DNA from: an uncultured Dehalococcoidia bacterium
Lineage (GTDB): Bacteria > Chloroflexota > Dehalococcoidia > Lucifugimonadales > CATOSD01
Reading direction: 5' to 3'
DNA length: 64,000 nt
Assembly: GCA_951812395.1 (NCBI GenBank)
Contig: CATOSD010000001.1
Location: 1,461,108 to 1,525,107, forward strand
Below, in pieces: positions 861 through 33,669 of this stretch (within the stretch, counting starts at the first letter, position 1; every line of letters begins with the position of its first letter). Under the pieces are notes generated by a model. The model was not told where the DNA came from, ran no database searches, and saw only the letters and a list, made by a program, of their open reading frames with translations. Made by a program: the position numbers and the translations under genes.

Positions 861-1358
861 CTAGAACAGCCTCAGCGTCTGCTGTTGCGTCTGCTCCGCC
901 TCTCCCTCGGCGTCTGAAGCCTGCGCCGTTCCCTGCCCGCGCCGGTTCCTGCGTCTGGCCGGGGGAGCGGGCCTTTCATGTGCCGGATGCTTGGGTTCGT
1001 CCTCCCACTTGGCCCTCGCCCGTTCGACCACCGCCGGGACCTCCTGCGTGAGCCCGGATTCGTCCAGATCGTCGAAGGACTCGATGTGCGGGTCCGACGA
1101 GGGCTGTTGCACCCCGATGGTGGCCCTGCCTCCCTTGATGGACACGACGACCTTCAGGTCCTCGGACGCGCCGGTGTCGTCCCCAGCGTCCTGCTCTCCG
1201 GCGTCATCGGAACCCTGTGCGTCCTGTGCGGTCTCCTTGTTGGCGTCCTGCTCGTCGGCAACCGCGGCTTCCGTGTCGTCCGCCGCATCGCCGAAGAGAC
1301 CGTCGTCTGCGCTCGGGGCATCCGAGCGGGTTGCTTCCGTTCCAACTTCGTCAGGCAT
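861..1358 (-). CDS. Hypothetical acidic protein at the end of the PRTRC cluster
   Basis: A 165-residue protein. The first 65 residues are almost all Asp, Glu, Ala, Thr and Ser and look disordered. Residues 68-115 form a compact segment starting LKVVVSIKGGRATIGVQ that is probably beta-rich. The tail is basic (PPARRRNRRGQG), then Gln-rich, ending QTLRLF. A good ribosome site (AAAGGAG) precedes the ATG. Being the last gene of the PRTRC run it could be a diverged PRTRC protein E, but I see no motif that proves this. The stop is followed in frame by GAGCCGGTTGGCGAGGGACGC and a second TAG, which mimics the end of the helicase gene at 5318. Confidence 0.6.
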   Translation of the reverse strand: MPDEVGTEATRSDAPSADDGLFGDAADDTEAAVADEQDANKETAQDAQGSDDAGEQDAGDDTGASEDLKVVVSIKGGRATIGVQQPSSDPHIESFDDLDESGLTQEVPAVVERARAKWEDEPKHPAHERPAPPARRRNRRGQGTAQASDAEGEAEQTQQQTLRLF

Positions 1359-1394: not shown

Positions 1395-1778
1395 TCAGGC
1401 TGCGAGCCTCGACTGTCTCCTGATCTCGCCGAGGGTCTGCGGCTCCCAGTACAGGTCCCGCTCCACGGCGGGGACGCTGCCGAACACGGTTACTTCCGAG
1501 AGTTCCGTCAGGTCGAAGTAGCCCAGTTCGACTTCAAACCCTTCGACGAGGCCGAAGCACGTTCCGGTCTCAGCGTCCCACTCGGTGACGTACCAGCGCC
1601 AGCCGTTGTAGGGCGAGAAGAGCTTCACCCTGGCGACCACGGTGTCGGGGTCGTCCGCGCCGTCATTGGCGTACAGGGGCGGGATGGTGTCGGCGAGCTC
1701 CTTGGTCATCAGCTTGTGCCTGCGGAGCCCGCTGTGGTTGTCCTGCCAGATCGTGGTGGTTCCCTTTTCGTTAGGCAT
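1395..1778 (-). CDS. DUF2958 family protein
   Basis: 127 residues, function unknown. It carries the run typical of DUF2958: LMTKELADTIPPLYAN, then FSPYNGWRWYVTEWD, GFEVELGYFDLTEL, and a final VERDLYWEP. DUF2958 genes occur mostly on plasmids and conjugative elements close to DNA-processing genes. The start at 1778 (MPNEKGT) is chosen because AAGGAG sits at the right distance before it; the frame stays open further upstream but the extra residues are arginine-rich shadow translation. Likely co-transcribed with the PRTRC genes. Confidence 0.85.
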   Translation of the reverse strand: MPNEKGTTTIWQDNHSGLRRHKLMTKELADTIPPLYANDGADDPDTVVARVKLFSPYNGWRWYVTEWDAETGTCFGLVEGFEVELGYFDLTELSEVTVFGSVPAVERDLYWEPQTLGEIRRQSRLAA

Positions 1779-1827
1779 GGTTTTCTCCTTGTTTCCTTCT
1801 TTGAATGCGTCCGTTGAGCGCTGTTCC

Positions 1828-2643
1828 CTAAGCCACGATTGCCAGCTCGGAGCCAGACCGCACCACCCGCGCCACCGTCTCCGGGGTGGCATACGTGGGG
1901 GTGACCGTTCCCTGCTCCATGTCCAGGTAGAGGCCCATGAAGGGGCAGGTTCCCGCCGCCATGCGGCGGACCACCTGTAGCGCCAGCGACGCCATCATCT
2001 GGTTGATGGTCGGGTCCTGATCGGTCAGGTCGAGGGCCGCCGCGCAGTCCACGTCGGGAGGCGTGGTCGACACGGCGGTCAGCAGGTCGGGCCGCTGCAC
2101 CGTAGGCGCGGGGAGCAGGTAGCAGGTCTGGTCGACGAAGGCTTGTTCGTCCCCAAAGTCCCGGTCGGCGACGTTGCCTATAAGCACCTGCCCCCAGTTG
2201 GTGTCGTTGCCCGCGTCGATGAGCCACCGGCGCGGGTCGCCCGGCAGGGACTCCGCCATCGCCCTGCGAGCTGCGGCGTTGTCGGCGCAGCCGATGATGA
2301 GGCTGTTCCCGTAGTGGGGAAGGCCGGGGTAGCGGCCCCCATCCGAGCGGGAGTCCTCTTCCCGGAAGGCGTACACCGAGTAGCCGACGGGACGCCGGTA
2401 GGCACTGGCCAGCCGGTCCGCGAGGGCCTGACTCTTGAATCGACCGACATCCTCCGGGTAGAAGTTCTGCCGCAGCAGGTTGTGGGGCTCCACCCGGTCG
2501 TGGTCGACCAGGACGATGGTGGCCTCCCGTCCCTGGAAGAGTCGGCAGAGACCCTCGGCCACGAAGCCGCCGGTCCCGCCGCAGCCGACCACCGTTATCC
2601 AGGGGTTGTCCAGCAGGAACGTGTTGTCCAGGTAGTAGGGCAT
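1828..2643 (-). CDS. PRTRC system ThiF/E1-like protein
   Basis: 271 residues, an E1-like adenylating enzyme of the ThiF/MoeB fold. The nucleotide-binding glycine loop is GCGGTGG at residues 20-26, preceded by WITVV, and the VDHDRVEPHNLLRQNF segment holds the conserved Asp, Arg and Asn residues of the adenylation site. A conserved cysteine lies in VDCAAALDL. This pattern matches the ThiF member of PRTRC (ParB-related, ThiF-related cassette) systems, where it sits beside an E2-like protein, a JAMM peptidase and a small ubiquitin-like protein, as here. In E1 chemistry it would adenylate the C-terminus of the ubiquitin-like protein; that role is inferred. It overlaps the upstream gene by 49 bases and has an AAAGGAGGTGA ribosome site inside it. 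Confidence 0.9.
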   Translation of the reverse strand: MPYYLDNTFLLDNPWITVVGCGGTGGFVAEGLCRLFQGREATIVLVDHDRVEPHNLLRQNFYPEDVGRFKSQALADRLASAYRRPVGYSVYAFREEDSRSDGGRYPGLPHYGNSLIIGCADNAAARRAMAESLPGDPRRWLIDAGNDTNWGQVLIGNVADRDFGDEQAFVDQTCYLLPAPTVQRPDLLTAVSTTPPDVDCAAALDLTDQDPTINQMMASLALQVVRRMAAGTCPFMGLYLDMEQGTVTPTYATPETVARVVRSGSELAIVA

Positions 2644-3368
2644 TTCTCAGTCACCTCCTTTTCTCTTGCCTCGTTTGAATCCGGCTCTTCGCCCGTCAGC
2701 CGGACGCCCGGAACTGGGCCGTCGAACACCTGCGGCCACTCCACCGGGGCGAAGTGGCCGTAGACGCCGACCCGCAGGCTCAGCTCGGGCCGGTCGCTGT
2801 CGAGGCGTCCCACGACGCCGTAGATGCGGAAGCCCTGCTCGTCGCCGTCGTCGGTCTTCGAGAAGAAGGCGCAGGAGCTTCCGTGGGAGTGGAACTCGGC
2901 GACCACCCCGGCGGGCGGCGTGTAGGTGAGGGACGAAGCCGTCCCTTCCTGTTCGGGAACCACCAGCCGGTAGGCTCGCCCGTCCCACCGCACGGCGAAG
3001 AACCGCTCGGTGCCGGGGTCGTCCTGGAACCAGCGCAGGCCAAACTCGAAGAGCCGGGCCGGGATGGGGCCGTGGGCAAGCTCCACCTTGTCGGCGACGG
3101 GAGCCAGGCCCCGCACCTCGCAGGATGCGACAATGACCCGCGCCGTCAGGTGGGCGCTCTCGGACTGGACGTAGAGGCCGCCCGATCCGAGCACGTAGTC
3201 GTAGCCGATTCCCTGGACTCCCGCGAGCCCGCCGGGGTGGTTGACCAGGTAGCCCACCGGCCCCGGCGCCCCGCTAGCGGTAGCCACGTCTCCCCTCGGA
3301 GACCGCCATCGCCTGGCCCACCGTGCACTGGGGAACCAGGTCTTCAGTCGGGTATACAGTTGTTCCAT
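2595..3368 (-). CDS. PRTRC system protein A (JAB/MPN JAMM metallopeptidase)
   Basis: 257 residues. A textbook JAMM zinc site is visible at residues 158-173: Glu158, His160-Ser-His162, Ser170 and Asp173, giving the HxH-x10-D spacing. The surrounding AEFHSHGSSCAFFSKTD and the later FRIYGVVGRL are characteristic of PRTRC protein A (Mov34/MPN/PAD-1 family). JAMM proteins cut isopeptide bonds or trim C-terminal tails of ubiquitin-like proteins, so trimming of the product of the gene ending at 5026 is a reasonable guess. The gene starts inside the end of the E2-like gene (95-base overlap) with GGAGGAG before the ATG, and ends inside the ThiF gene, so translation of the three is probably coupled. 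Confidence 0.9.
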   Translation of the reverse strand: MEQLYTRLKTWFPSARWARRWRSPRGDVATASGAPGPVGYLVNHPGGLAGVQGIGYDYVLGSGGLYVQSESAHLTARVIVASCEVRGLAPVADKVELAHGPIPARLFEFGLRWFQDDPGTERFFAVRWDGRAYRLVVPEQEGTASSLTYTPPAGVVAEFHSHGSSCAFFSKTDDGDEQGFRIYGVVGRLDSDRPELSLRVGVYGHFAPVEWPQVFDGPVPGVRLTGEEPDSNEAREKEVTEKCPTTWTTRSCWTTPG

Positions 3369-3978
3369 CGAGCTCCTCCCATAGCGCGTGCAGGTTGTCG
3401 GGGTGCTTCTTCGAGCGGTCCCGGGTGTCTCCGGTTAGGGAGAAGAAGGACTGGAAGAAGCCTTCCGGTATCAGGTCCACCTCCTCGGGGAACCTGTGGC
3501 TTCCGGGACAGACCCGACCGTCCCTGAAGACGTTGAAGGCCGGGGCCCGGAAGAGGAGTTGCTCGGGGTCGTTTGGCCGGCCAAGCGCGGCATAGACCCA
3601 GGGCGCACGCCCCGGCGAGCAGACGAAGACCAGCCCCGGCATGGGGAGCCGGAGCCGGGCGGGTGGCTTGAACGCCTCCCGTTGCAGGGCCACGGGCCAG
3701 ACCTGCGGAGGCCGCCAAAGGGCCACCACCTGCCCGGTCTCGCCCTGGTTCCACCAGAGGGCCTCCTGTGGCAGCAGTCCCGATGAGAAGCCCAGGTGCT
3801 GGGTGAACACGTTGGCGATCTCGTCCGCCGAGACGGTCCTGACCCACACCGAGTCGCCCTCGAAGCCCCGAAGCAGGAGCGTCTCGTCGTAGACCTCCAG
3901 TTGGAGGTTCAGCTTGTCCCTGGGCATATCGTCCGGGCCGGGCAGGGACCACCCGGTCTTCTCAACGTCAGTCGTCAT
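3274..3978 (-). CDS. PRTRC system protein B (E2-like)
   Basis: 234 residues, matching PRTRC protein B, a divergent prokaryotic E2 (ubiquitin-conjugating enzyme-like) fold. Recognisable blocks are PGLVFVCSPGRAPWVYA at about 114-130, FRAPAFNVF at 143-151 and RVCPGSHRFP at 155-164. Cys157 is the candidate active-site cysteine that would carry a thioester. Its ATG overlaps the stop of the upstream gene by 11 bases and is preceded by AAAGGAGG. Function as a conjugating enzyme is inferred from the family and from its E1, JAMM and ubiquitin-like neighbours. Confidence 0.88.
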   Translation of the reverse strand: MTTDVEKTGWSLPGPDDMPRDKLNLQLEVYDETLLLRGFEGDSVWVRTVSADEIANVFTQHLGFSSGLLPQEALWWNQGETGQVVALWRPPQVWPVALQREAFKPPARLRLPMPGLVFVCSPGRAPWVYAALGRPNDPEQLLFRAPAFNVFRDGRVCPGSHRFPEEVDLIPEGFFQSFFSLTGDTRDRSKKHPDNLHALWEELDGTTVYPTEDLVPQCTVGQAMAVSEGRRGYR

Positions 3979-4810
3979 GGTCGTCGTCCTCCTTTCCTTG
4001 TTCTTGCTCCGGGACTCTGGGCAGGACGGTGTCCAGCATCTCGGCGAAGCGGACGGGGAGGTCCTCCTCCATCCAGTCGGCCAGCGTGAATACCGAGTCC
4101 ATCAGGGCGCTGGCCCTGCGCCACTCCTCCGTCCCTTCGGCGATGATCTCGTCCTCCCAGGGGTCGGCGAAGCCGTCGTAGCTGCCATCCTCATAGGAGT
4201 GGTCGAGGAAGAAGTTGCCGGTCTCGGCGAAGACCCAGGAGGCGGCCTTTGCCGCCCCCTCGAACCGGGTATCCTTCACCGCCTCGGTCAGTTCCTCGAC
4301 GGGTATGCCCCCTTCGGGGAGCCTCTGAAGGGTCTGTTGCGGGATGCGCTCGGCGGCCGACTCCAGCCATGCCACCCGTATCTCGTCGGACTCCCCGTAG
4401 AAGGAGTCCGGGGGTTTTGCCAGCAGGAGCAGGGCCGAGATGCCGTCCCGGTAGCCGTTCCACAGCTCGTGGAGGCCGTCGTAGCCGAAGCCCATCAGGT
4501 CGAAGGGGATGCCCCTCCGCAGCCAGGACCAGGGCGGTTCGTCCCCGTCTTCGAGGAAGAACTCAAAGTAGGGCTGGTAGAGGGGGAAGTGCTTCCCTCC
4601 GAAGAGGTTGGCGAAGCGCTCCACCCTCGTGCGCAAGTCGGGGGCCGCAAGCGTTGCCTCGGCCTCATCGGGAAAGAGGCGGCGCACCAGCCCCGCGAAC
4701 CAGGCGTAGTCGTCGGCGTAGCCGACCAGCGTCACAAGCTCCCGCAGCGACGGCGGACGCCGCAGGAGCTTTTCAGAAAGGCCGCTCAGCGTCGGCGGAG
4801 CAGCTTGCAC
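3968..4810 (-). CDS. Hypothetical protein, possible PRTRC protein F
   Basis: 280 residues, acidic and rich in Trp, Phe and Tyr, with no signal peptide or membrane segment. Blocks that stand out are MGFGYDGLHELWNGYRDGISALL in the middle (shown only as a landmark) and an Asp/His-rich C-terminus. I do not recognise catalytic residues. The position between protein C and protein B is where PRTRC protein F usually lies, so the name is by context only. The start is a GTG preceded by TGGAGG at seven bases, inside the upstream gene (25-base overlap). Confidence 0.65.
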   Translation of the reverse strand: MQAAPPTLSGLSEKLLRRPPSLRELVTLVGYADDYAWFAGLVRRLFPDEAEATLAAPDLRTRVERFANLFGGKHFPLYQPYFEFFLEDGDEPPWSWLRRGIPFDLMGFGYDGLHELWNGYRDGISALLLLAKPPDSFYGESDEIRVAWLESAAERIPQQTLQRLPEGGIPVEELTEAVKDTRFEGAAKAASWVFAETGNFFLDHSYEDGSYDGFADPWEDEIIAEGTEEWRRASALMDSVFTLADWMEEDLPVRFAEMLDTVLPRVPEQEQGKEDDDHDD

Positions 4811-5013
4811 CGCATCGCCTCCAGGAGCCGTCCCGTGGCCGAGGCGTAGTCCTGCGCCTGGGCGCAGGCCATCTCCACGTCCTTCTGCCGTGCGGCCGCG
4901 GCGTCCAGGTCGAAGGAGCCGTCTGGCCGTGTGAGCTCCGCCGTGAGCTCGATGATGCTGAGGGCCGCTGACGGTGTCGCCGCCAGCAGGCCCGCGAAGG
5001 TCCGGTTGTCCAT
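4786..5013 (-). CDS. Small hypothetical protein in the PRTRC cluster
   Basis: 75 residues, largely helical (FAGLLAATPSAALSIIELTAE, then an Ala/Gln-rich amphipathic stretch), ending in basic LLRRR. A strong GGAGGACATCCG-ATG start lies only 12 bases after the ubiquitin-like gene and its 3' end overlaps the next gene, so it is clearly part of the operon. No family is recognised. It may be a helper subunit specific to this lineage. Confidence 0.7.
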   Translation of the reverse strand: MDNRTFAGLLAATPSAALSIIELTAELTRPDGSFDLDAAAARQKDVEMACAQAQDYASATGRLLEAMRCKLLRRR

Positions 5014-5025
5014 CGGATGTCCTCC

Positions 5026-5223
5026 TTACTGTGTGCAGGCGCCCTTGGTGCCCACCCGCCGCTGGAACTCGTAGATGGTGTCGTCGCCCCGGGTGGTCTC
5101 CTTCACCGAGGCGTTGGCGATCTCGCCGTAGAAGTCGCTGAGCGTCGCTTTCACCTGGTCTACGGTCATCTCGGGGTCGGGGTCCGGGAACTCGCGGTCG
5201 TCGTATACGAAAATGCGTGCCAC
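5026..5223 (-). CDS. PRTRC system protein C (ubiquitin-like)
   Basis: 65 residues, starting at a GTG with AAGGAG eight bases before it; it is hidden inside a longer spurious frame. ARIFVYDDREFPDPDPEMT, then DFYGEIANASV, then YEFQRRVGTKG match PRTRC protein C, which I associate with the prokaryotic ubiquitin-like (Prok_Ub, beta-grasp) family. The chain ends GTKG followed by four extra residues, ACTQ. In ubiquitin systems a JAMM or other protease exposes the terminal Gly before adenylation; the neighbouring JAMM and E1 genes make that plausible here but it is not proved. Confidence 0.85.
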   Translation of the reverse strand: MARIFVYDDREFPDPDPEMTVDQVKATLSDFYGEIANASVKETTRGDDTIYEFQRRVGTKGACTQ

Positions 5224-5267: not shown

Positions 5268-5330
5268 GCGGGGGAGGCCGTCGCTCCGTGGCGGCGGCCC
5301 CTCCCGTGAACTGCGGTCTAGCGTCCCGCG
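5268..5330 (-). promoter_or_regulatory. Leader repeat copy 2 between helicase and protein C genes
   Basis: The short hairpin has the helicase stop TAG in its loop (complement of 5311-5323). The long hairpin pairs GGGGAGG at 5271-5277 with CCCCTCCC at 5298-5305. Copy 1 shares the hairpin sequence and also the 25-30 bases before it, including helicase C-terminal codons. Confidence 0.7.
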
Positions 5331-7675
5331 CCGACCGGCTCCTTCTCGCGCTCCTGCTCCATCGCCCACTCGAACATCGAGATGGTCGAGACCTGGGGCT
5401 TCCCGTTCTTCCGCTTCGGCTTGACGGGCTCCTCCGCCATGAACTCCGCCCAGGAGAACAGCGACTGCTGCGGCTCCGGGTCCTCGTCCTCGTGGTGGCC
5501 GTTGGTCCCGTTGCCGTTGGCGTGGCGGCCGTTGCCGGGGACAAGCTCGACCGTCGGCCCGAAGATGTCGGACCCGTGGCCGTGGCCGTTGCCATTCCCG
5601 TTGCCGTTGACCGCAATGGTCTCCGGCTCGATCTCGACGACCTTCCAGCCGTCGTCCACCAGCAGCTCCTCGGCCTCGCTCTCGGCGTTCCGCGCCTGGG
5701 CGAACACCTCCTCCATCGTCTCGGCCTCGTCCTCCTCCTCGCCGCTGACGATCCTGCGGGCCAGGGCCATCATCATGTCGTCGCCGTCGTCCCCGTAGGC
5801 GGCAAGCCCGTCCTCCGGCAACTCCCCCTCGACGGCCAGGGAGCTCTGCATCTTCTTTGCCACCAGCTTCAGCGCGTCGGCCTGGAGGGTGTTCCGGTAG
5901 GCCAGAAACACGACCTTGACCGGGCGGGTCTGCCCGATGCGCCACGACCGCCGCGACGCCTGCCGGACGACGTACACCGAATAATCCGTTTCGTCCCAGA
6001 CGATGGTCGGGAAGTCGATCAGGTCCAGGCCGGTCTGCACCAGGCGCGGGTGGCAGATGAGGACGTCGATGCCCTCCTTCACCTTGTCGGCCACCCACTT
6101 CTCCCTGCGGTTCGGGGCCACCGCGTCGGCCTTCATCACCGCCACCTTGAACCCGTGCCGGGTGAGGAAGTCGTCCATCCGCCCGGTGATGTCCCGCGTC
6201 CCCGTGTGGGTGACGTAGACCAGCACCCGCCTTCCCTCCAGCCGCTCGGCGGCCACCAGGTCGACGAGCGCCTTCTCCTTCGGGTAGAGCTTCTCCTCGG
6301 AAAGCGGCGGAACCGCCACGATGACGTCGCCCGTCCGGGGGTCGAACACCGTCTCGCCCCTGGTGCACCCGTCCGGGTACGCCAGCAGCGTCTGGAGGTA
6401 GGTCGCCAGCAGCCGCTTCGAGCCGGACTTGAGCGCCTTCGCCAACTCCTCCTTCAGCGTCTCGAACACGTGCTTGTAGGCGCTGCGCTGGGAGTAGCCC
6501 GTGGCGTCCTCCTCCGAGTCCATCGAGGACACGAGGATCTTCTCCTCGTAGTCGGGCAGGCCGGAGGCGACGTCGGCCAGTCTGAGGAACACCGTGTTTC
6601 CGATGATGTGGAAGAGGGCGCTGGGCACGAGGCCGGGCCTCTCCCTGGTGACCTTGCGGTAGCTGCGCCTCCTGCTGTTGCGCCCGTCCTCCACCGCGTC
6701 GTCGTCGGGCTTGCCGACGGTTATCTCCTCGAAGCCGTACCGCTTGATCCAGCGCCCCTCGTCGGAGCGCCCGAACTCCGTCCTGATCTCCGGGGAGAAC
6801 CGGTAGAGCAGGTGGAAGATGGTCGAGGAGTAGCCTCCCAAGAGCGTGCCCGTTAGGGAGAGGGACTTGCCGCACACGTCGGCGAGGATGCCCGCGGCGA
6901 TGCCCTGGGCGCTCCCTCGCCCCTTGAACTCATGCACTTCGTCGCCTATAAGCAGGTCGAAGAAGCCCTTCATCCGGTGCTTGATGTAGTCGGCCAGCGG
7001 GTAGCGGGCCGGGCCGGACCGGTCGGCCTGCCAGAGGGGGGCGCCGCAGGCGGCGCAGGTGTGCTTGCGGCGGTTCAGGTCCGCGAACGTCAGCGGCACG
7101 CCGTCCTTGTCCACGACCTGCGCCGTGCAGTCGGGGCAGCAGGGGACCCGGAAGGGCTCCCCAGTCTCCTCGTCCCGCAGGAGCCTTCCCTTCGAGACGG
7201 CCCACCGCTCGATGACGGCGGGCATCCAGCGGTAGGACAGCTTGGCTTTCTCACGGCTCATCACCGCGAAGAGGGGGCCGGAGCCGATGGAGAGGCGCAG
7301 CCGCTCCAGGTCGGTGATGGACTCGACGATGGCGGCGCGGACGCCGGGCACCGTCATCTCCACCTCCCGCTTCCACTTGGGAACCAGGTGGGGCGGGCAG
7401 ATGATGAGCACCCGCTCGAAGCCCGCCATGTATGCGGCGGCGGCCCCGATGAAGGTCTTGCCGGTTCCCATCTCGCCGACGACCGTCGTGCCCCGGTGGG
7501 CCTTCAGTGAGAGGGCCGCGCCCCTGATGGCGTCGGCCTGCGCCCCCAGGGGCTTGCGGAGCAGCCTGGGGAGCGTGCCGCCGTTCTCCGAGGGCCGGTA
7601 GAGCGGCGGGTAGGACTCGACCACCCTCCTGGCTATCGCGTCCTTGAACGTGTCTATGAAACCTCCGAGGTTCAT
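5318..7675 (-). CDS. SNF2/DEAD-like superfamily 2 helicase
   Basis: 785 residues from the ATG at 7675, chosen because TAGGAGG precedes it. Walker A GEMGTGKT is at residues 67-74, motif II is DEVH near 245 in LLIGDEVHEFKG, and motif VI reads SWRIGQTRPV near 560, the SNF2-type arginine-finger region. Between motifs I and II lies an insert with two CxxC pairs (CCPDC and CAAC) that should bind zinc. The C-terminal 170 residues are low complexity, with NGNGNGNGHGHG and a second Asn-Gly run, and end EPVGAGR. Such ATPases usually translocate on double-stranded DNA; a role in element replication or remodelling is inferred. The gene sits between the PRTRC cluster and a methylase. Confidence 0.88.
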   Translation of the reverse strand: MNLGGFIDTFKDAIARRVVESYPPLYRPSENGGTLPRLLRKPLGAQADAIRGAALSLKAHRGTTVVGEMGTGKTFIGAAAAYMAGFERVLIICPPHLVPKWKREVEMTVPGVRAAIVESITDLERLRLSIGSGPLFAVMSREKAKLSYRWMPAVIERWAVSKGRLLRDEETGEPFRVPCCPDCTAQVVDKDGVPLTFADLNRRKHTCAACGAPLWQADRSGPARYPLADYIKHRMKGFFDLLIGDEVHEFKGRGSAQGIAAGILADVCGKSLSLTGTLLGGYSSTIFHLLYRFSPEIRTEFGRSDEGRWIKRYGFEEITVGKPDDDAVEDGRNSRRRSYRKVTRERPGLVPSALFHIIGNTVFLRLADVASGLPDYEEKILVSSMDSEEDATGYSQRSAYKHVFETLKEELAKALKSGSKRLLATYLQTLLAYPDGCTRGETVFDPRTGDVIVAVPPLSEEKLYPKEKALVDLVAAERLEGRRVLVYVTHTGTRDITGRMDDFLTRHGFKVAVMKADAVAPNRREKWVADKVKEGIDVLICHPRLVQTGLDLIDFPTIVWDETDYSVYVVRQASRRSWRIGQTRPVKVVFLAYRNTLQADALKLVAKKMQSSLAVEGELPEDGLAAYGDDGDDMMMALARRIVSGEEEDEAETMEEVFAQARNAESEAEELLVDDGWKVVEIEPETIAVNGNGNGNGHGHGSDIFGPTVELVPGNGRHANGNGTNGHHEDEDPEPQQSLFSWAEFMAEEPVKPKRKNGKPQVSTISMFEWAMEQEREKEPVGAGR

Positions 7676-7746
7676 TTGAGTCGTCCTCCTATTCCGTGGT
7701 GGGCCGGAGGACGACGCCGGGACCCGGGACGCACCACGCCCCCGGT

Positions 7747-7785
7747 GGGGACGCTTGTGAGTCACGGGCTCCTGGAAGCGTCCCC
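7747..7785 (-). repeat. Perfect 10-bp inverted repeat in the helicase leader
   Basis: GGGGACGCTT at 7747-7756 pairs with AAGCGTCCCC at 7776-7785 across a 19-base loop, in the 180-base gap before the helicase start. It is stronger than the usual second hairpin of the leader family and may replace it in this copy. Confidence 0.7.
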
Positions 7786-7837
7786 TGGCGGTTGTTTGAA
7801 CGTGCGAACCCGCGCCAGTCGGCGGGCATCGTGAGTG

Positions 7838-7858
7838 CGGCTCGGTGCGAGCCGTCTA
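7838..7858 (-). promoter_or_regulatory. Leader repeat copy 3, short hairpin before helicase gene
   Basis: CGGCTCG at 7838-7844 pairs with CGAGCCG at 7848-7854 around GTG, directly after the TAG stop of the upstream gene on the minus strand. The order stop, GACG, hairpin, GCAC is the same as in the other copies. Confidence 0.6.
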
Positions 7859-8071
7859 TGCCGCTTTCAGGGCCTCCCTGCGGGCGGCTTCGGCGGCCCT
7901 GTACTCGTCGTAGCAGCGGCCGCTGAGGTGGTAGGACTTCACCGGCGAGGACACGGCCCTTCCGTAGTCGTCGATATCCACCGATGCGGTCTGCATGGCG
8001 GGCTCGCCGGGGGCGATGGGCTGTCCGCACCGGCAGCAGGCTTCGAGTACCATGATGGTCTGCGTCTGCAT
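7856..8071 (-). CDS. Small putative zinc-binding protein
   Basis: 71 residues. CCRCGQPI near the start and HLSGRCYDEY further on give a Cys-x2-Cys ... His-x3-Cys arrangement suited to one zinc ion. The rest is charged helix. The ATG at 8071 has AAAGGAG before it. Family not recognised; perhaps a small adaptor or regulator of the helicase-methylase block. Confidence 0.65.
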   Translation of the reverse strand: MQTQTIMVLEACCRCGQPIAPGEPAMQTASVDIDDYGRAVSSPVKSYHLSGRCYDEYRAAEAARREALKAA

Positions 8072-8118
8072 CTTTCTTCTCCTTTCAGTATGTGGAGGGG
8101 TGTTCGGTGACATCCGTG

Positions 8119-9168
8119 CTACGCTGCGATGTCCTCGATCCGTCCGTCGTCCAGGTCGAGGGCGACGACGGTCGTGTTGAGCTTCTCGCGGTGGACCTCC
8201 TTCTCGGGGGCGTCCTCGACCATCACCATCTCCTTGCTGGTGCGGCCCTTGACCAGGATGCGCCGGCCCTCGGCTTCGAGGACGAGGTTGTTCAGGAAGC
8301 CCGCCGCCACCAACATCGCCATGTGCCCCCGTCTGAGGGGCATCAGCGGGCGGGTGCGGTTGTCATTCGCGGGCCAGAGGGTGTCGGTGATGTCCGTGCT
8401 GGTCCACAGCCCCGACCGCCGCGCCTCAGCCGCCGCAGCGACGGGATCGACGGTGCGAGTGGTGAACAGGACATCGCCGCTCGGCGTGGTGGCGGGGGTG
8501 TACTCCGGGTAGGAGTAGGAGTTGCGCTGGGAGCGCAGAGGCTCCGGCTCGCCCAGCGACCACTCCAGGACCATGCTCTCGGCGGGGGCGTCGGGAACGG
8601 GGTCGGCCTTGCGGTAGCCGAACAACACCACCTGGTCGAAGACCTCCCGTTCAGGAACGGGGAAGGCCCAGCAGCGCATCCGCCCGTAGTGGGTGGACAG
8701 GTAGCGGGCCGAGACCGCGAGACGCTGCCGTGGCACGATGAAGACCAGCAGGCCGCTCTCGGCCAGGTAGCGCGTGCAGTGCGTCAGGAAGGCGTGCTCC
8801 GTCCGCTTGTCCTCCGAGTCGTAGTCGTAGGGAGGATTCAAGAGGAGCAAGCCGAAGGCCCCGTTCGCTATCGAGGTGGCGAACAGGTCCGAGGCCAGGG
8901 CGCCGTGGAGGTGTTCCGCGGCCTCCTGCGCCCGGTCACGGTGCAGCTCCACGCCGTAGGTCTCGATGGGGATGGCGTTGGGCCTGTCCAGGCGCTCGGC
9001 CAGCTGCGCCAGCGCCTCCCCGGCCCCACAGCAGGGGTCGAGGATGCGCAGCGTGTCCCGCCCCCGGTTGTAGTTCCCGGAGGGGGTGTGAATCAGTTCC
9101 GCGACCAGGTCGACGACCCTGGGCGGCGTGGGGTAGAACCCCCCTTTTGCTTGAGCAGCGAGTCGCAT
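8119..9168 (-). CDS. DUF6094-like class I SAM-dependent DNA methyltransferase
   Basis: 349 residues. The N-terminal GGFYPTPPRVVDLVAE and LDPCCGAGEAL (SAM-binding motif I) lead to LLLLNPPYDYD, the NPPY catalytic motif of N6-adenine or N4-cytosine amino-methyltransferases. The set resembles DUF6094 proteins of conjugative elements. The ATG at 9168 has AAAGGAG in front. No restriction partner is next to it, so protection or marking of element DNA is more likely than a restriction-modification pair; target sequence unknown. Confidence 0.85.
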   Translation of the reverse strand: MRLAAQAKGGFYPTPPRVVDLVAELIHTPSGNYNRGRDTLRILDPCCGAGEALAQLAERLDRPNAIPIETYGVELHRDRAQEAAEHLHGALASDLFATSIANGAFGLLLLNPPYDYDSEDKRTEHAFLTHCTRYLAESGLLVFIVPRQRLAVSARYLSTHYGRMRCWAFPVPEREVFDQVVLFGYRKADPVPDAPAESMVLEWSLGEPEPLRSQRNSYSYPEYTPATTPSGDVLFTTRTVDPVAAAAEARRSGLWTSTDITDTLWPANDNRTRPLMPLRRGHMAMLVAAGFLNNLVLEAEGRRILVKGRTSKEMVMVEDAPEKEVHREKLNTTVVALDLDDGRIEDIAA

Positions 9169-10733: not shown

Positions 10734-11288
10734 CTATGCGGCCATCAGGCCCCTCTCCTTGAGGCTCACGAACCGCCCCCTGCCGATGACCACGTGGTCG
10801 ACCAGCTCGATGTCCAGCAGGTCAGCCGCCTGCTTCAGCTTTCGGGTGATGTGCACGTCCTCCGGGCTGGGGTCTGCCGACCCCGAAGGGTGGTTGTGAG
10901 CGATGGCGATGGCGGGAACGGCCTCGACCACGGCGGGCCGGAGGACCTCCGCGGCGCGGACTATCGACGAGCTCACGTTCCCCTGGTAGACGACCCTCTG
11001 GCCGATGACGTTGTTGTGGGTGTCGAGCAGCAGCACCCGCAGCTGCTCCTGGGCCAGGGAGGACATCTCCGGCCCCAGCAGGCTGTGGATGTCCCCGGGC
11101 GACCCGATGGAAGGCGGGTCCTCCGGGCGTTCCGGCTTGGAGTTGACCTCGTAGCGCATGGCGATCTCCCCCAGCAGGCTCAGGTTGCTCCGCAGGGCGT
11201 CCAGCAACGCCTGTCCCTCCGCGCTGGGCGGAGATGCCGGGTCGAAGGTGAACGCCAGGTTCTTGGTCTGCTTGTTCTTCTTGGGCAT
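10734..11288 (-). CDS. radC: RadC/JAB domain protein
   Basis: 184 residues. The JAMM site of RadC proteins is complete: His131-Asn-His133, Ser141 and Asp144 in HNHPSGSADPSPED, preceded by IAIA. The N-terminal helix-hairpin-helix of chromosomal RadC is missing and is replaced by a short basic start and a helical region, as in plasmid and phage RadC forms. The biochemical role of RadC is still debated; mobile-element copies are common. A full leader repeat lies upstream. This is the second JAMM protein of the element besides PRTRC protein A. Confidence 0.9.
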   Translation of the reverse strand: MPKKNKQTKNLAFTFDPASPPSAEGQALLDALRSNLSLLGEIAMRYEVNSKPERPEDPPSIGSPGDIHSLLGPEMSSLAQEQLRVLLLDTHNNVIGQRVVYQGNVSSSIVRAAEVLRPAVVEAVPAIAIAHNHPSGSADPSPEDVHITRKLKQAADLLDIELVDHVVIGRGRFVSLKERGLMAA

Positions 11289-11901: not shown

Positions 11902-12285
11902 CTAGAAGGGAGAGACGCCGACCGGCTCCTCGATGTCCGAGGCGTCGCCGGCGCCGTTGCCGTTGCGGGAGTCGAGGAACACGACCTCGGAGGCGTGGAC
12001 CTCGGTGCGGTGGCGGCGCTGGCCGTCCTCGTTCTCCCACGAGTTCTGGACGAGGCGGCCCGCGACGTAGACCCGCTGGCCCGTCCCGACGTACTGGTTC
12101 ACGGCCTCCGCGGTAGCGCCCCAGACCACGACGTCGTGCCAATCCGTCTCGTCCTCGGCGTCCTTGCGGTAGCGGTCGGTCGCCAGCCGCAGCTTGGTGA
12201 CGGCGGTGCCGTTCGGCGTGTAGCGCATCTCGGGGTCGGTCCCGACCCTGCCCAGAAGCTCGACTTTGTTGATGGTGCGTGACAT
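11902..12285 (-). CDS. ssb: Single-stranded DNA-binding protein
   Basis: 127 residues with the OB-fold sequence of bacterial SSB: MSRTINKVELLGRVGTDPE, then RLATDRY, DWHDVVVWG and GQRVYVAGRLVQ. It is shorter than chromosomal SSB (about 160-180) because the flexible linker is short; the tail ends EEPVGVSPF rather than the acidic DDIPF type, so docking of host partners may differ. AAGGAG stands before the ATG. It should coat single strands made during transfer or replication and works with the RAD52, nuclease and primase genes nearby. Confidence 0.92.
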   Translation of the reverse strand: MSRTINKVELLGRVGTDPEMRYTPNGTAVTKLRLATDRYRKDAEDETDWHDVVVWGATAEAVNQYVGTGQRVYVAGRLVQNSWENEDGQRRHRTEVHASEVVFLDSRNGNGAGDASDIEEPVGVSPF

Positions 12286-12308
12286 GTGATTCTCCTTGTG
12301 TGTGTAGT

Positions 12309-12403
12309 GGCGCGGTCTTGCCGCGCCCGTCTTGAATGAGAGCGGGGCCGACTCCCCAATAGAGGGAAGACGGCCCCGTCCTGCGCTCCCAACAGGGGGA
12401 GCG
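12309..12403 (-). promoter_or_regulatory. Leader repeat copy 7, before ssb, with an extra hairpin
   Basis: Short hairpin: CGCTCCC 12384-12390 with GGGAGCG 12397-12403, starting at the TAG of the upstream gene. Long hairpin: CGGGGCCG 12343-12350 with CGGCCCCG 12371-12378. A third perfect hairpin, GGCGCGG 12309-12315 with CCGCGCC 12321-12327, lies between it and the ssb ribosome site and is unique to this copy. Confidence 0.8.
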
Positions 12404-12404
12404 T

Positions 12405-13502
12405 CTAGGTGTTCACCCGCACGTATTCCGACTCGCTCTCCGTGACGATCTCGGCCCGGACCTCGGGGTCGAGGGCCTCGTTGAGCCTGCGGTGGTTCAC
12501 GGAGTACCTGGTGGAGCTGACGAGGGTGACCGTCCGGCCCCCCACCGTCGCCTTGGAGTCGCCCTGCCGGCGCATCCACGCCTTCAGGGTGTCCAGCGCG
12601 GCGCGCTTGGCCTTCTCCGGCTCCTTGATGGACTCCTGAGCCTCTGCGTAGGCCGCCACCGCGTCCCGTGCCTCTTCGTCTGTCACCTCCTCTGTCTCGG
12701 TCTGTTCGTCCTCGCCGACCTCAGCCGCACCCGGCAGACAGACCGCCAGGAACGGGCAGCTTCGGCACTGCCAGGTATTGGCCGAGAAGTCGCGGTCCGG
12801 CAGCGCGTCCGGGTCGGGTCCGTTGAGGGAATGGTGGCTCGCCACCTCGCCGAGCCACTCGCAAGCGTCCTGCATGGCCCTCTCCAGCCGTCCGGCCGGT
12901 ATCCGCTCCCAGTCCCAGGTGCGAGCCCCCGTGTCCATCGTGGCTATGACCGCGTCCCGCAGGTCGCCGAACTCGCCGAGCGAGTAGAGGGCGGCCTGAG
13001 CCACCGACGCCGGGTGGCTGCGCTCCGCTCCCAGCGTCTGCCAGCGCTTGAACGCATCCGGCCCCCGCGTCTTGATCTCGACGACCATCGGGTCGCCGAA
13101 TGCGGGGGTCTCCGGCTCTCCCTCGAAGAGGAAGAGTTGAGGGGGCGCTTCGCCCGGTTCCACCGGCATCCGCACCGTGCCGTCGGGGTGTCCGGTGACC
13201 AGCAGGTTAGGGCCAATCCGCACGGTCACCTGGTGCGGGTCCTGGGGATCGGGGGCGTCCACCTTCCAGCCCGCCCGCTCCATTGCCCGCACCAGCACCG
13301 GCTCCAGGGCGTTGCCCGCCTCCATCGCCGTCAGCGAGTCGTCGCTGGGGGGATTCATCGGCTCGTAGCCGGTCGCGGCGTACCAGAGGGCGCGGCGGCA
13401 GCCCAGGGCCGACGATGCCCGCACCACCAGCTCGCCCTCCTCGTTGATCTGTGCCGCAGGGCGGGAGAAGACCTCCGCCCTGTCGATAGTCTCTGTCGTC
13501 AT
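12405..13502 (-). CDS. Cas4/RecB-like PD-(D/E)XK nuclease with predicted Fe-S cluster
   Basis: 365 residues. Active-site candidates are Glu67 (ALEP), Asp107 (GHPDG), Glu142 and Lys144 (VEIK), followed by a QAALYSL motif near 169-175. Four cysteines, Cys35 in GCRRALW and Cys246, Cys249, Cys255 in WQCRSCPFLAVC, have the split one-plus-three spacing that binds a 4Fe-4S cluster in Cas4 and AddB nucleases. The C-terminal 110 residues are an acidic linker and a small domain. It is likely an exonuclease making 3' single strands for annealing by RAD52. No CRISPR array or other cas gene is present, so it should not be called a CRISPR protein. Confidence 0.85.
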   Translation of the reverse strand: MTTETIDRAEVFSRPAAQINEEGELVVRASSALGCRRALWYAATGYEPMNPPSDDSLTAMEAGNALEPVLVRAMERAGWKVDAPDPQDPHQVTVRIGPNLLVTGHPDGTVRMPVEPGEAPPQLFLFEGEPETPAFGDPMVVEIKTRGPDAFKRWQTLGAERSHPASVAQAALYSLGEFGDLRDAVIATMDTGARTWDWERIPAGRLERAMQDACEWLGEVASHHSLNGPDPDALPDRDFSANTWQCRSCPFLAVCLPGAAEVGEDEQTETEEVTDEEARDAVAAYAEAQESIKEPEKAKRAALDTLKAWMRRQGDSKATVGGRTVTLVSSTRYSVNHRRLNEALDPEVRAEIVTESESEYVRVNT

Positions 13503-15667: not shown

Positions 15668-16732
15668 CTAGCGGGCGGAGCGGGCCGCCTGCGCCATCAG
15701 GCGCAGGAAGGCGGCGCGTCCGTGTGGCCGGGCCGCAAGCTCGGCCACGTCGCCGATGTCTTCGGGAAGGGTGACTGCGGCGGCCCTGCGACCGAGCAGG
15801 GTCAGAAGCCGCTCCGTCGCCTCATGGCCCGCGTCGTCGTTGTCGAAGGCGAGGAAGACGCGGGGGCAGCCCCGGAGGGCGGAGGCGACACGCTCGACGC
15901 CCTGGGTGCCCAGGGCAGCGACGGATGGGATGCCCCATCCGGTAAGGGCGAGCCAGTCGAACAACCCCTCGGCCACGACCGCCCAATCAGGGGCGGGGCC
16001 GAGGCGACCCAGACCCAGCACCGGCTTGGGGCCGGGAAGGGCCTGGAAGCGGGGAGTCCGGTCGGGATCGACCGCCCGCCCGGCGAGCCAGCGGACGAGG
16101 CCGTCAGCCTGCCCCGTACTTGATACGGGGTCGGGGACGACGACCATGCCGGCGAACCGCTCCGCTCCCCGCTCCATGAACAGACCGGAGTCCCTGATTC
16201 GCTTCTCGGAGAAGCCGAGGGACTCCAGGGCCTGCCGCAGCCCGCCGCCCGGCGCATAGCCGAGACAGAGGCGGGCTGCGGCGACCGGGCCGACGCCCCG
16301 CGAGGCCAGGTACTCCCGCGCTTCTGAGGAACGCCGGAGAGTACCGGCGTAGAAGCGCGCGGCCGCCGTCAGCAGGGCGGGGTCCCTGGGGGGCAGCGCG
16401 GCGGACGCAGGACGCCGCGTTCCGGCTGGACGAATGGCGGCGCTGGGCGCAAGCCCAGGGCTGCCGTCCAGCCGCGCGATGGCATCGGGCAGCGACAGCC
16501 CCTCGGCCTGCTGGATGAAGTCCAGCACGTCGCCGCCGAGACCGCAGCCGAAGCAGTAGAACCTTTCCGAATCGGCGTACACCGTGAAGCTGCCCTCCGC
16601 TTCGTCATGGAAGGGGCAGACGCCCTGGCGGACCCTGCCCCTTCCCCTGAGCCGCACCCCCGAAGCTTCCACCGTGTCGCCCAGCGAGTGCCGGGCCTTC
16701 AGCGCGGTGATGTCCACGTTGGCCGTGACCAT
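15668..16732 (-). CDS. DnaG-like DNA primase (CHC2 zinc finger plus TOPRIM)
   Basis: 354 residues, shorter than chromosomal DnaG (about 600) because the DnaB-binding C-terminal domain is absent. The zinc ligands are Cys39, His42, Cys60 and Cys63 (CPFH, CFGC). A TOPRIM fold follows, with Glu in VVAEGLFDWLAL and the acidic pair in FLAFDNDDAGHEA. It would make RNA primers for lagging-strand synthesis after single-strand transfer. The ATG overlaps the stop of the preceding gene as TGATG. The stop lies in the centre of the palindrome CCGCTAGCGG. Confidence 0.9.
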   Translation of the reverse strand: MVTANVDITALKARHSLGDTVEASGVRLRGRGRVRQGVCPFHDEAEGSFTVYADSERFYCFGCGLGGDVLDFIQQAEGLSLPDAIARLDGSPGLAPSAAIRPAGTRRPASAALPPRDPALLTAAARFYAGTLRRSSEAREYLASRGVGPVAAARLCLGYAPGGGLRQALESLGFSEKRIRDSGLFMERGAERFAGMVVVPDPVSSTGQADGLVRWLAGRAVDPDRTPRFQALPGPKPVLGLGRLGPAPDWAVVAEGLFDWLALTGWGIPSVAALGTQGVERVASALRGCPRVFLAFDNDDAGHEATERLLTLLGRRAAAVTLPEDIGDVAELAARPHGRAAFLRLMAQAARSAR

Positions 16733-17229
16733 CACGCACCCCCGGCCAGGGGCCGCAGGCCCCGGAGGCTGCGACCCGAGACGACCTTGCCGGGCCGCCA
16801 GCGCATCCCCAGGACCGCCGCGACCTCCAGCGTCCCGCCGTCTCCGGTGGGCACCAGCGCGGCGGCCTTCCCGGTGCCCTGGCTGTAGACCAGGGCGCCG
16901 CTGCCGCCGAACCGCCGCTTGACCAGCTGCGTCCACTCGGAGAAGGCCCACCGCGCCTCCCGCGTCTCAACCTTCGTCGCGTCCACGCCGGCGAGGACCG
17001 CCAGCGCCCCGTCGACGTCCCCCGACTGCCTGAGCCGCCGGGCCTCGTGGATCGAGCGTGTCGCGCTCGGCTCCGCCGTCTCCGCCGATGCCGTCTGCGT
17101 TGCGGCTCTCGGCTCCTCCACCTTGAACATCGCCGCAATGAGCTGGTCGACCAGCTCCTCCAGGCTGCGCCGGGGCCTGTCCACCCCGTCCATCGTCCGA
17201 TTGCCTGCTACCAGTGTTGCCGTCGTCAT
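16732..17229 (-). CDS. Hypothetical protein coupled to primase
   Basis: 165 residues from the second of two adjacent ATGs at 17229; TAGGAGG suits it best. The N-terminal 70 residues are polar, with LEELVDQLIAAMFKVEE helix; the C-terminal half has RWAFSEWTQLVKRRFGGSGALVY and may be a small fold. No family recognised. Stop and primase start overlap, so it may act with primase. Confidence 0.62.
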   Translation of the reverse strand: MTTATLVAGNRTMDGVDRPRRSLEELVDQLIAAMFKVEEPRAATQTASAETAEPSATRSIHEARRLRQSGDVDGALAVLAGVDATKVETREARWAFSEWTQLVKRRFGGSGALVYSQGTGKAAALVPTGDGGTLEVAAVLGMRWRPGKVVSGRSLRGLRPLAGGA

Positions 17230-31348: not shown

Positions 31349-31615
31349 ATGAAAGATAGCACCCGAAAGAACAGGCACAAGAGACGAGAGAGGCCCGCAG
31401 GGGACGCCCCTGACGGCTCTCCGGCCGACCTGATGCCGTCCTACACGCCCAAGCAGCGCGAGACGGTCCTCAAGGGGTTCCGCATCCTGGCAGAGGTCGC
31501 CGTCCGCGCCCACATGAGGCGGCAGGAGTCGGCGTCCGACGACGCGCCGGACCACCGCGAGGAGGACGGCCGATCACTGCCCGGACAGGACAGACACATG
31601 GAGGCTGACGGATGA
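31349..31615 (+). CDS. Small charged protein coupled to the first recombinase
   Basis: 88 residues, very polar, with a basic start (STRKNRHKRRERP) and one helix, TPKQRETVLKGFRILAEVAVRAHMRR. Stop and recombinase start overlap (ATGA). Possibly a directionality factor or helper, which serine integrases need for excision, but there is no sequence proof. Confidence 0.55.
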   Translation: MKDSTRKNRHKRRERPAGDAPDGSPADLMPSYTPKQRETVLKGFRILAEVAVRAHMRRQESASDDAPDHREEDGRSLPGQDRHMEADG

Positions 31616-33177
31616 GCGGGCACCAGGCCACCACGCCGGCGGCGCTCTACGCCAGGGTGTCTAGCGACAGGCAGGACGTGGACCTTTCCATTGCCGCACA
31701 GCTGCGAGCCCTCAGGGACTACGCCCGCAAGAACGACTACGTCGTCACCCGCGAGTACGTGGACGAGGCCGAGAGTGGACGCATCGCCGACAGGCCGGAG
31801 TTCGGCAAGATGATCGACGAGGCCAAAACGCCCAACGCTCCCTTCAGGGAGATTCTGGTCTGGAAGTTCTCCCGCTTCACCAGAAAGCGCGAGCACGCCG
31901 TCGCCTTCAAGTCCATGCTCAGGCGCAGGGGCATCAGGGTGGTCTCCATCACCGAGCACGCCGACGACTCCCCGACGGGAAAGCTCCTGGAGGCCATCAT
32001 AGAGAGCGTGGACGAGTTCTACAGCGAAAATCTCGCCCAGGAGGTCACGAGAGGGATGCGGGAGGCCGCCTCTCGCGGCTTCTGGGTCGCCAGCAGGACG
32101 CCTTACGGCTACAACAGGGTCATGGTGCAGGATGGGCCCAAGAAACGCCCCACGCTGGAACCCAATGAGGATGCAGCCCGTGTCGTCAAGCGCATGTTCG
32201 AGATGGCTGAGGCCGGAACGGGGATGCTGCCCATCGCCAAGACCCTCAACGACGAGGGTGTCGCCAGTCCCACGGGAAGGCTCTGGTCCAAGAGAGGCGT
32301 CAACTTCATCCTCAGTAACGAGGTGTACACGGGTACGCTGGTCTGGGGCGCCAGGGCCAAGGACAAGGCCGAGCCGGTTCGCATCGAAGAGGCGCACCCC
32401 GCCATTGTCTCCATGACCCGCTTCCGCCGGGTCAACGGTCTGATGCGCTCCCGGGCGCCCAGGGTCGCCCACCCACGGCGAGTCGCAAGCTCCTATCTGC
32501 TCAGCGGACTGGTCAAGTGCAAGGCCTGCAACGGGGCGCTCAGCGGCCAGGACGCCAAGAGCGGCCAGTTCTCCTACTACGTCTGCCAGTCGATCATGAA
32601 GCGCGGCAAGGACGCCTGCGAGACTCCCAGGCTCAATGCCCGCCGCTTCGAGGGGATGGTCGTGGATAGGATTCGGTCCAACGTACTCACCGAGGGCAAC
32701 GTCCGCGCTCTCGTGAAGGTCGTGGACGAGCAGATCGACCGCGTAGCCAGCGAGCAACGCAAGAGACTGGAGACCATCGAGAAGGAGCTTGAAGACGCGA
32801 AGCGGGCTCTGGGCCGTATCTGGCACGCCATCGAGACATCCGACATACAGCTATCCGACGCCTCAGACCGCATCAGGGAGCACCGCGAGCGACGGGAGCG
32901 CCTTGAGGACGCAGCCACCGATGCGAAGGCCATCCTGTCCCAGCGCAGGGTCGTCCTGGACGACGCAGAAACCATTGCAGTCTACGCCCATGACATGAGC
33001 GAGTTCCTGAACGAGAGCCAGACGACCGAACGCAGGGCCTTCATCGAGACCTTCGTGAAGGAGATCGTCGTGATGCCCGGAAGCGCCCTGCTGCGCTACA
33101 CCATCCCCATGCCCGTCGATGGCCTGATGCCCGGCAGAAGAGCTGAGGCGATAGCACTTGACGGCCCGGCCATGTGA
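31612..33177 (+). CDS. Large serine recombinase 1
   Basis: 521 residues. Resolvase domain 1-145 with catalytic Ser17 in YARVSSDRQ, then the recombinase domain with GYNRVMVQDGPKKRPTLEP and GRLWSKRGVNFILSN, a zinc-ribbon region (CKACNGAL ... CQSIMKRGKDAC near 305-345) and a coiled-coil of about 390-460. Complete and apparently functional. It is closely related to recombinase 2 over its whole length, but ends normally (LDGPAM, TGA). Confidence 0.92.
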   Translation: MSGHQATTPAALYARVSSDRQDVDLSIAAQLRALRDYARKNDYVVTREYVDEAESGRIADRPEFGKMIDEAKTPNAPFREILVWKFSRFTRKREHAVAFKSMLRRRGIRVVSITEHADDSPTGKLLEAIIESVDEFYSENLAQEVTRGMREAASRGFWVASRTPYGYNRVMVQDGPKKRPTLEPNEDAARVVKRMFEMAEAGTGMLPIAKTLNDEGVASPTGRLWSKRGVNFILSNEVYTGTLVWGARAKDKAEPVRIEEAHPAIVSMTRFRRVNGLMRSRAPRVAHPRRVASSYLLSGLVKCKACNGALSGQDAKSGQFSYYVCQSIMKRGKDACETPRLNARRFEGMVVDRIRSNVLTEGNVRALVKVVDEQIDRVASEQRKRLETIEKELEDAKRALGRIWHAIETSDIQLSDASDRIREHRERRERLEDAATDAKAILSQRRVVLDDAETIAVYAHDMSEFLNESQTTERRAFIETFVKEIVVMPGSALLRYTIPMPVDGLMPGRRAEAIALDGPAM

Positions 33178-33454: not shown

Positions 33455-33652
33455 ATGCCCACGACCCGAAAGGCCATCACCTTTTCCATGCCGCCGGAAA
33501 TGGCCGAGCAGGTGCAGCAGGTGTTGAAGGAGGAAGGCCGCACCATGAGCGAGTTCCTCCGCGAGGCCATCCGCCTGTACATGCAGGAGCGGGCGTGGCT
33601 GCGGCAGGAGCGCCGCCAACGGGCCGAGGCCCGCCGGAACGACCAGGAGTGA
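33455..33652 (+). CDS. Ribbon-helix-helix (CopG-like) regulator
   Basis: 65 residues from the ATG at 33455. TTRKAITFSMPPEMAEQVQQ supplies the beta strand and first helix and RTMSEFLREAIRLYM the second, the classic RHH fold. The C-terminus is a basic RQERRQRAEARR tail. No toxin gene follows, so it is more likely a repressor of itself and recombinase 2 (17 bases downstream) than an antitoxin. Confidence 0.85.
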   Translation: MPTTRKAITFSMPPEMAEQVQQVLKEEGRTMSEFLREAIRLYMQERAWLRQERRQRAEARRNDQE

Positions 33653-33669
33653 GCAAGGAGGACACACCC

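Follow-up and report, generated by a model that had tools for sequence, protein, structure and literature searches.

A 64,000-nt stretch of DNA from an uncultured Dehalococcoidia bacterium (contig CATOSD010000001.1, positions 1,461,108 to 1,525,107), here called the window, was analysed for a cluster of genes predicted to attach a ubiquitin-like protein (Ubl) to other proteins. From position 5223 down to position 1828 of the minus strand, the cluster encodes the Ubl (protein C), an E2-like protein (B), a JAMM peptidase (A) and an E1 enzyme, in the operon order of class 6d. The gene set of this class (Ubl, helical protein, E2, JAB and E1) was described in 2006 by Iyer, Burroughs and Aravind (PMC1779556). 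We consider it probable that the window holds a self-contained class 6d Ubl conjugation module on an integrative conjugative element, in which A matures C for conjugation by E1 and B. The features of the module, in window coordinates, are listed below.

5026..5223, minus strand: protein C, ubiquitin-like, GTG start, ending ...RRVGTKG-ACTQ
5029..5040, minus strand: ACTQ codons following the conserved glycine in the sequence, the proposed JAMM cleavage product
5026..5028, minus strand: in-frame TAA, the sole separator of C and x75, which follows four codons later, after GGAGGA
4786..5013, minus strand: x75, a 75-residue helical domain that relatives carry as a fusion to the tail of C
3968..4810, minus strand: 280-residue protein at the position of PRTRC F and of the alpha-helical protein of Iyer et al., with T197, D203 and W218 invariant in the alignment
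3274..3978, minus strand: protein B, E2-like (PF14460 Prok-E2_D, 65 bits)
2595..3368, minus strand: protein A, JAMM peptidase (Glu121, His160, His162, Ser170, Asp173)
1828..2643, minus strand: E1 / ThiF-like adenylating enzyme (TIGR03736, 109 bits; PF00899, 51 bits)

Components of the conjugation module

The four components named in the initial annotation (Ubl C, E2 B, JAMM A and E1/ThiF) were all recovered by hidden Markov model (HMM) search at the place it gave them on the minus strand. Matches of this strength in four adjacent genes must be regarded as far beyond chance. Protein C matched PF14454 (Prok_Ub) with 56 bits (E 3e-15) and TIGR03738 (PRTRC_C) with 48.2 bits, above the cut-off of 45.95. 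The GTKG near its C-terminus is conserved among relatives, and the ending GTKG plus ACTQ is present as first annotated.

In an alignment of 16 sequences, Pro146, Asn149, Cys157 and Gly159 of B were invariant, which bears out the initial choice of Cys157 as the E2 cysteine. Asn149 lies eight residues before Cys157, a placement presumably reminiscent of the HPN motif in eukaryotic E2 enzymes. The histidine described as absolutely conserved downstream of the E2 cysteine in class 6d falls in a column that is His in many relatives and is not His in the window or in Anabaena; the window has another histidine near the cysteine of B, in KKHPDN. The E1 alignment contains an invariant cysteine, and the E1 profile matched the catalytic and adenylation domains of UBA6, UBA1 and NAE (the NEDD8 E1) at E 1e-13 to 1e-11.

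Protein A matched TIGR03735 (PRTRC_A) with 57 bits and PF14464 with 21 bits, the latter below its cut-off of 25. Glu121, His160, His162, Ser170 and Asp173 were invariant in 15 sequences ranging from cyanobacteria to proteobacteria, and this result was repeated in a second set. The initial annotation had placed the active site at Glu158, His160, His162 and Asp173; the two histidines and the aspartate stand, and the glutamate is Glu121, about 40 residues before the HxH as is usual in JAMM proteins. Glu158 was rejected as the catalytic residue, its position being Asp or Glu and not invariant. The true start of A is probably downstream of the annotated ATG (3368). Between residue 61 and about residue 220, most 10-residue blocks of the structural model of A had a predicted local distance difference test (pLDDT) score over 90. 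The best matches of this model in the PDB were AMSH-type Sst2, Rpn11 and an archaeal Rpn11 homologue (E 6e-5 to 1e-4), which are deubiquitinating JAMM enzymes, some of them with structures solved with ubiquitin.

Of the marks of class 6d, a Ubl with a conserved glycine, an E2 with its cysteine, a JAMM with an intact active site and a separate E1 gene were present. On these sequence features the module is a divergent, apparently intact class 6d conjugation module, a relative of PRTRC and not PRTRC in the strict sense. The initial annotation had called it PRTRC, and the HMM check does not sustain that name. C alone exceeded its curated NCBIfam cut-off, and A (57 bits against 101.8), B (63.5 against 131.45) and ThiF (108.9 against 144.75) all fell below theirs. 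PRTRC ParB (TIGR03734) had no match when the whole genome was searched, PRTRC D (TIGR03739) had none in the genome with a model that was also silent in every control genome, and a search for PRTRC E (TIGR03741) found no match. The strict definition is not reached, with A, B and E1 under their cut-offs and no ParB in the genome. ParB and D had been described as lying outside the visible part; they are indeed not in view, but ParB is found nowhere in the genome.

The gene x75 had been reported as an unknown 75-residue gene inserted into the cassette. C and x75 share one reading frame in the window, and in five relatives (L015, L018, L019, L020, L021) the two are fused at this place; the fused protein in genomes of the same phylum, which is probably Chloroflexota, reads ...RIGTKG-RRPPD-x75. 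x75 matched the fused proteins by phmmer at E 4e-13 to 4e-8. Because it is fused in frame to C in relatives, x75 is a partner of C and not a foreign insertion. C with a fused tail domain also occurs on plasmids of Nostoc, Leptolyngbya, Brasilonema, Anabaena, Trichormus and Gloeothece, and the cyanobacterial tail families are related to x75 (hhalign 81%). C and x75 are separated in L017 as in the window, and split forms of C and an x75-type domain were found in Pseudanabaena, Oscillatoria and Planktothrix. No family was matched by x75 in Pfam or NCBIfam. The possibility that x75 is PRTRC E was ruled out (hhalign <1%), and the 280-residue protein showed no relation to PRTRC F that hhalign could detect (0.1%).

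The tail of C and the JAMM gene across related loci

The proposal that a JAMM peptidase removes the residues after the conserved glycine was compared across loci drawn from genome contigs, IMG/VR, plasmids and other genomes, 117 of which had intact genes. The count excludes five loci whose genes are frameshifted or interrupted, L054, L075 and L016 among them; in L075 the JAMM gene is split into two parts that lie about 1.3 kb from each other. L054 (Cupriavidus, 6085..8986) combines a frameshift in the JAMM gene with a C that stops at the bare glycine after a GGGG run, which may be coupled decay or a sequencing error. The contig scan used the canonical E1 alignment, the broad C and E1 alignments being too diverse, and its 80 loci are therefore biased to Burkholderiales and Bacteroidetes. 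IMG/VR queries with the C type of the same phylum and with the Planktothrix E1 gave no matches.

That C should carry residues past the glycine only where a JAMM is present was predicted after the first cases and before the genome scan, the IMG/VR scan and most of the plasmid loci, and all loci gathered after this prediction obeyed the rule that there is no tail without a JAMM. A tail was present in 81 of the 86 JAMM-positive loci (five had none) and in 0 of the 31 loci that lack JAMM. Tails extended 2-13 or 56-100 residues past the conserved glycine, and the residue following the glycine was mostly Ala or Ser. In the JAMM-less loci, C ended in GTKG, GAKG, GSKG, KTNG, DSNG or close variants and stopped exactly at that residue. 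Searches of whole records found no A homologue in eight JAMM-less plasmids or in five IMG/VR records, which are possibly fragments, and none was found in seven JAMM-less genomes of the Bacteroidetes type, four of which were searched with the PRTRC_A model.

The closest pair of loci lies on two cyanobacterial plasmids. The Oscillatoria plasmid has the JAMM gene and its C ends in GSKG-VK, whereas the Planktothrix plasmid has no JAMM gene and its C ends in GSKG. About 605 bp are missing from Planktothrix exactly at the JAMM gene, while the operon DNA is 79-86% identical and the E1 92% identical between the two.

Several observations weigh against maturation of C by A. Five JAMM-positive loci (Rhizorhabdus, Sphingomonas, Methylomonas, L132 and Pelobacter, in the last of which a whole-record search showed the JAMM gene to span the record start) have a bare glycine or alanine end. 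On the E1 tree each trait changes about six times. Supported branches hold four independent pairs, which go in the expected direction wherever they differ; with only four, a sign test cannot reach p 0.05, and phylogenetic significance was not reached. Fisher tests on identity clusters gave 5e-7 at 65% and 1.5e-4 at 50%, values that ignore relatedness and overstate independence. The tails in cyanobacteria and in the same phylum are mostly long folded domains that could function uncleaved, and those of Burkholderiales are 3-13 residues only. The fold of C also bears on the question, a predicted beta-grasp having been named as a check in the initial annotation. When this check was run, the model of C (pLDDT 76, residues 58-65 disordered) had the expected order strand-strand-helix-strand-strand; the fold search by structure comparison gave no significant match, and hhalign of C to ThiS left the fold unconfirmed. 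The beta-grasp fold of C thus rests on its Pfam family and on Iyer et al. On balance, JAMM maturation of the Ubl has good comparative support, and the removal of the tail after GTKG as first proposed agrees with the distribution across loci, at a level short of phylogenetic significance.

Shared ancestry could produce the same co-occurrence if one or two clades had both traits and the others neither. The roughly six changes of each trait and the uniformity of large clades, such as Bacteroidetes and Burkholderiales, fit such a history. The change recurs, however, within the cyanobacterial clade (Planktothrix/Oscillatoria) and on several proteobacterial branches, and there were zero exceptions in the direction that would break processing, which makes common descent an improbable account of the pattern. 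A could also be a deconjugase only, the tail not being removed by it; C would then be an unconjugated Ubl adaptor, or some other host protease would trim it. The five bare-ended loci with JAMM are consistent with this, and YukD, a bacterial ubiquitin-like protein, is described as not conjugated (PMC1779556). We give this explanation little weight, since it accounts neither for all 31 JAMM-less loci ending at the glycine with no tail nor for the joint loss of JAMM and tail in Planktothrix. Under maturation by A, the five bare-ended loci imply that maturation is not the only role of A and suggest that it also takes C off targets.

Neighbouring genes and the carrier element

The complete minus-strand order in the window is an SNF2-like helicase, C, the 75-residue gene, the 280-residue gene, B, A, E1, a DUF2958 gene and a gene for an acidic protein of 165 residues. 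The flanking features are as follows.

5318..7765, minus strand: SNF2-like helicase, directly upstream of C (PF04851, PF00271)
1395..1778, minus strand: DUF2958 protein, after E1 (PF11171, 36 bits), outside the conjugation set
861..1358, minus strand: acidic 165-residue protein ending QTLRLF, which resembles the clamp-binding motif; weak similarity to the product of the gene directly upstream of C in related loci
31612..33177 and 33595..35370: two related large serine recombinases in tandem, with tRNA-Ala at 35250..35325

Homologues of the helicase lie near the operon in L015, L019 and L020, and a DUF2958 homologue is also present in L006 (phmmer E 1e-17). The span first annotated, 1395-5223, holds all four components; it also includes the DUF2958 gene and omits the weakly E-like gene at 1358..861.

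Among loci of the same phylum and of cyanobacteria, the gene directly upstream of C encodes a small protein ending in Q[LI]xLF in 13 of 17 cases, with the variants QLSLF, QLTLF, QITLF, QISLF and QLNLF. Over all loci this end was found in 34 of 11,947 open reading frames (ORFs) of at least 80 residues, and the 34 include most of the 13. The motif search was unplanned, and the motif set was chosen after the first examples had been noticed. The replication sliding clamp is bound through a consensus motif, QLxLF at the C-terminus (PMC4549789). Next upstream lies dnaN, the gene for the clamp, in each of the five same-phylum loci whose context extends far enough (L015, L016, L018, L019, L020), where it was recognised by Pfam clamp domains. 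Unrelated bacteria too have dnaN near the operon, accompanied in some cases by dnaX, holA or ssb (L123, L126, L132, L135, L136, L036, L035). In many Burkholderiales loci (within L045-L100), about 2.3 kb upstream of C, the protein before ParB ends in DQLTLF, DQLALF or DQMTLF, which also resembles a clamp-binding peptide.

This neighbourhood points to the replisome as the predicted place of action. Ubl conjugation might act on the sliding clamp or on clamp-bound proteins, for element replication or copy control, as the excess of the motif upstream of C and the adjacency of dnaN in the same phylum and on several unrelated plasmids would suggest. We put this forward tentatively and lean somewhat against it. 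The motif indicates contact with the clamp at most and not its modification, and zero dnaN matches were found in the window. The E-like gene of the window is found at the opposite end of the operon and shows weak homology (E 0.005 against the profile of upstream proteins; phmmer to L020, E 0.002).

The module could instead serve in anti-phage defence, comparable to Bil, Bub or type II cyclic-oligonucleotide-based anti-phage signalling systems (CBASS). Its E1-E2-Ubl-JAMM set is similar, the profile of A gave weak sequence matches to BilC and BubCD, the model of A matched BubCD (E 8e-3), and CBASS-like cGAS and SAVED genes lie directly after the conjugation operon of the Oscillatoria plasmid on the opposite strand (L127 6934..10131). 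A defensive role nevertheless seems unlikely, as the neighbours are mostly genes of replication and transfer (dnaN, dnaX, holA, ssb, SNF2, ParB) and the operon has no effector gene.

The conjugative-element setting given in the initial annotation was confirmed by TrbL-like, TraG/TrwB-like coupling and Replic_Relax genes and by the two large serine recombinases adjoining tRNA-Ala, and the carrier of the module is probably an integrative conjugative element. The second recombinase ORF passes through the tRNA-Ala gene, which is on the opposite strand. An att repeat of tRNA-Ala was sought at the left side and none was found. The element has a second JAB-fold gene, for a RadC-type protein (10734..11288, minus strand), and further replication genes near the module, for SSB (11905..12579, minus strand) and a DnaG-like primase (15668..16951, minus strand). 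Immediately left of the window, a 3881-residue open frame (L002 5620..17265, plus strand) lies beside a transposase (L002 18255..19751) whose end falls at window position 643.

Proposed mechanism and comparison with known systems

Four results established here, namely the gene content, catalytic residues that are intact, C-x75 fusions among relatives and the joint distribution of tail and JAMM, lead us to infer a sequence of cleavage, adenylation, transfer to targets and reversal. C would be produced as a precursor, and A would cut after the glycine of GTKG, removing ACTQ or, in relatives with the fusion, releasing the helical domain x75. E1 would adenylate the exposed glycine, and C would pass to Cys157 of B and then onto target proteins, from which A may in addition remove it. 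Related cleavages are known: according to a review, BilA has its glycine uncovered by the JAMM protein BilC (PMC11354881), and Cap3 cleaves cGAS fusions behind the cGAS C-terminus (PMC10097602). A wider scheme, in which the JAMM matures a Ubl-helix fusion and a QLxLF adaptor steers conjugation to the clamp, would parallel ubiquitin and SUMO signalling at PCNA in logic, not in proven descent; we regard it as doubtful.

Mobile-element E1-E2-Ubl-JAMM modules of class 6d were predicted in 2006, and no biochemical test of them turned up in the open-access literature searched. The tail/JAMM rule, including a matched plasmid pair that has apparently lost both together, offers a sharp handle on precursor maturation. 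The sliding-clamp link is new and putative; the clamp-motif neighbour and the linkage to dnaN would give a first concrete candidate target, the replisome. Should this hold, bacteria too would have ubiquitin-like control at the sliding clamp.

The module shares with class 6d a Ubl with a C-terminal glycine, a JAB with an extra N-terminal region, an E1, an E2 with a conserved cysteine and a sporadic occurrence on mobile elements (PMC1779556); the 280-residue gene occupies the place of the alpha-helical protein. In the 2006 text consulted the glycine is terminal and JAB processing is predicted only in general terms, and it mentions neither fusions to x75 nor a tail/JAMM rule nor a protein with the clamp motif. 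With the PRTRC cassette (TIGR03734-03742) it shares the order C, F-position gene, B, A and ThiF and a nearby SNF2 helicase; it differs in that E is weakly represented and displaced, the F-position gene is not detectably homologous and x75 is added. Bil (BilABCD) and Bub, which are defence or stress systems, also combine E1, E2, JAMM and Ubl, but from other Ubl and E2 families, and the Ubl of Bil is a two-domain protein. Eukaryotic ubiquitin and NEDD8 precursors likewise carry a C-terminal extension or a small unrelated fusion that is trimmed to the glycine. There the trimming is done by cysteine deubiquitinating or SENP-type enzymes, whereas in the system of the window the proposed trimmer is a JAMM metalloprotease.

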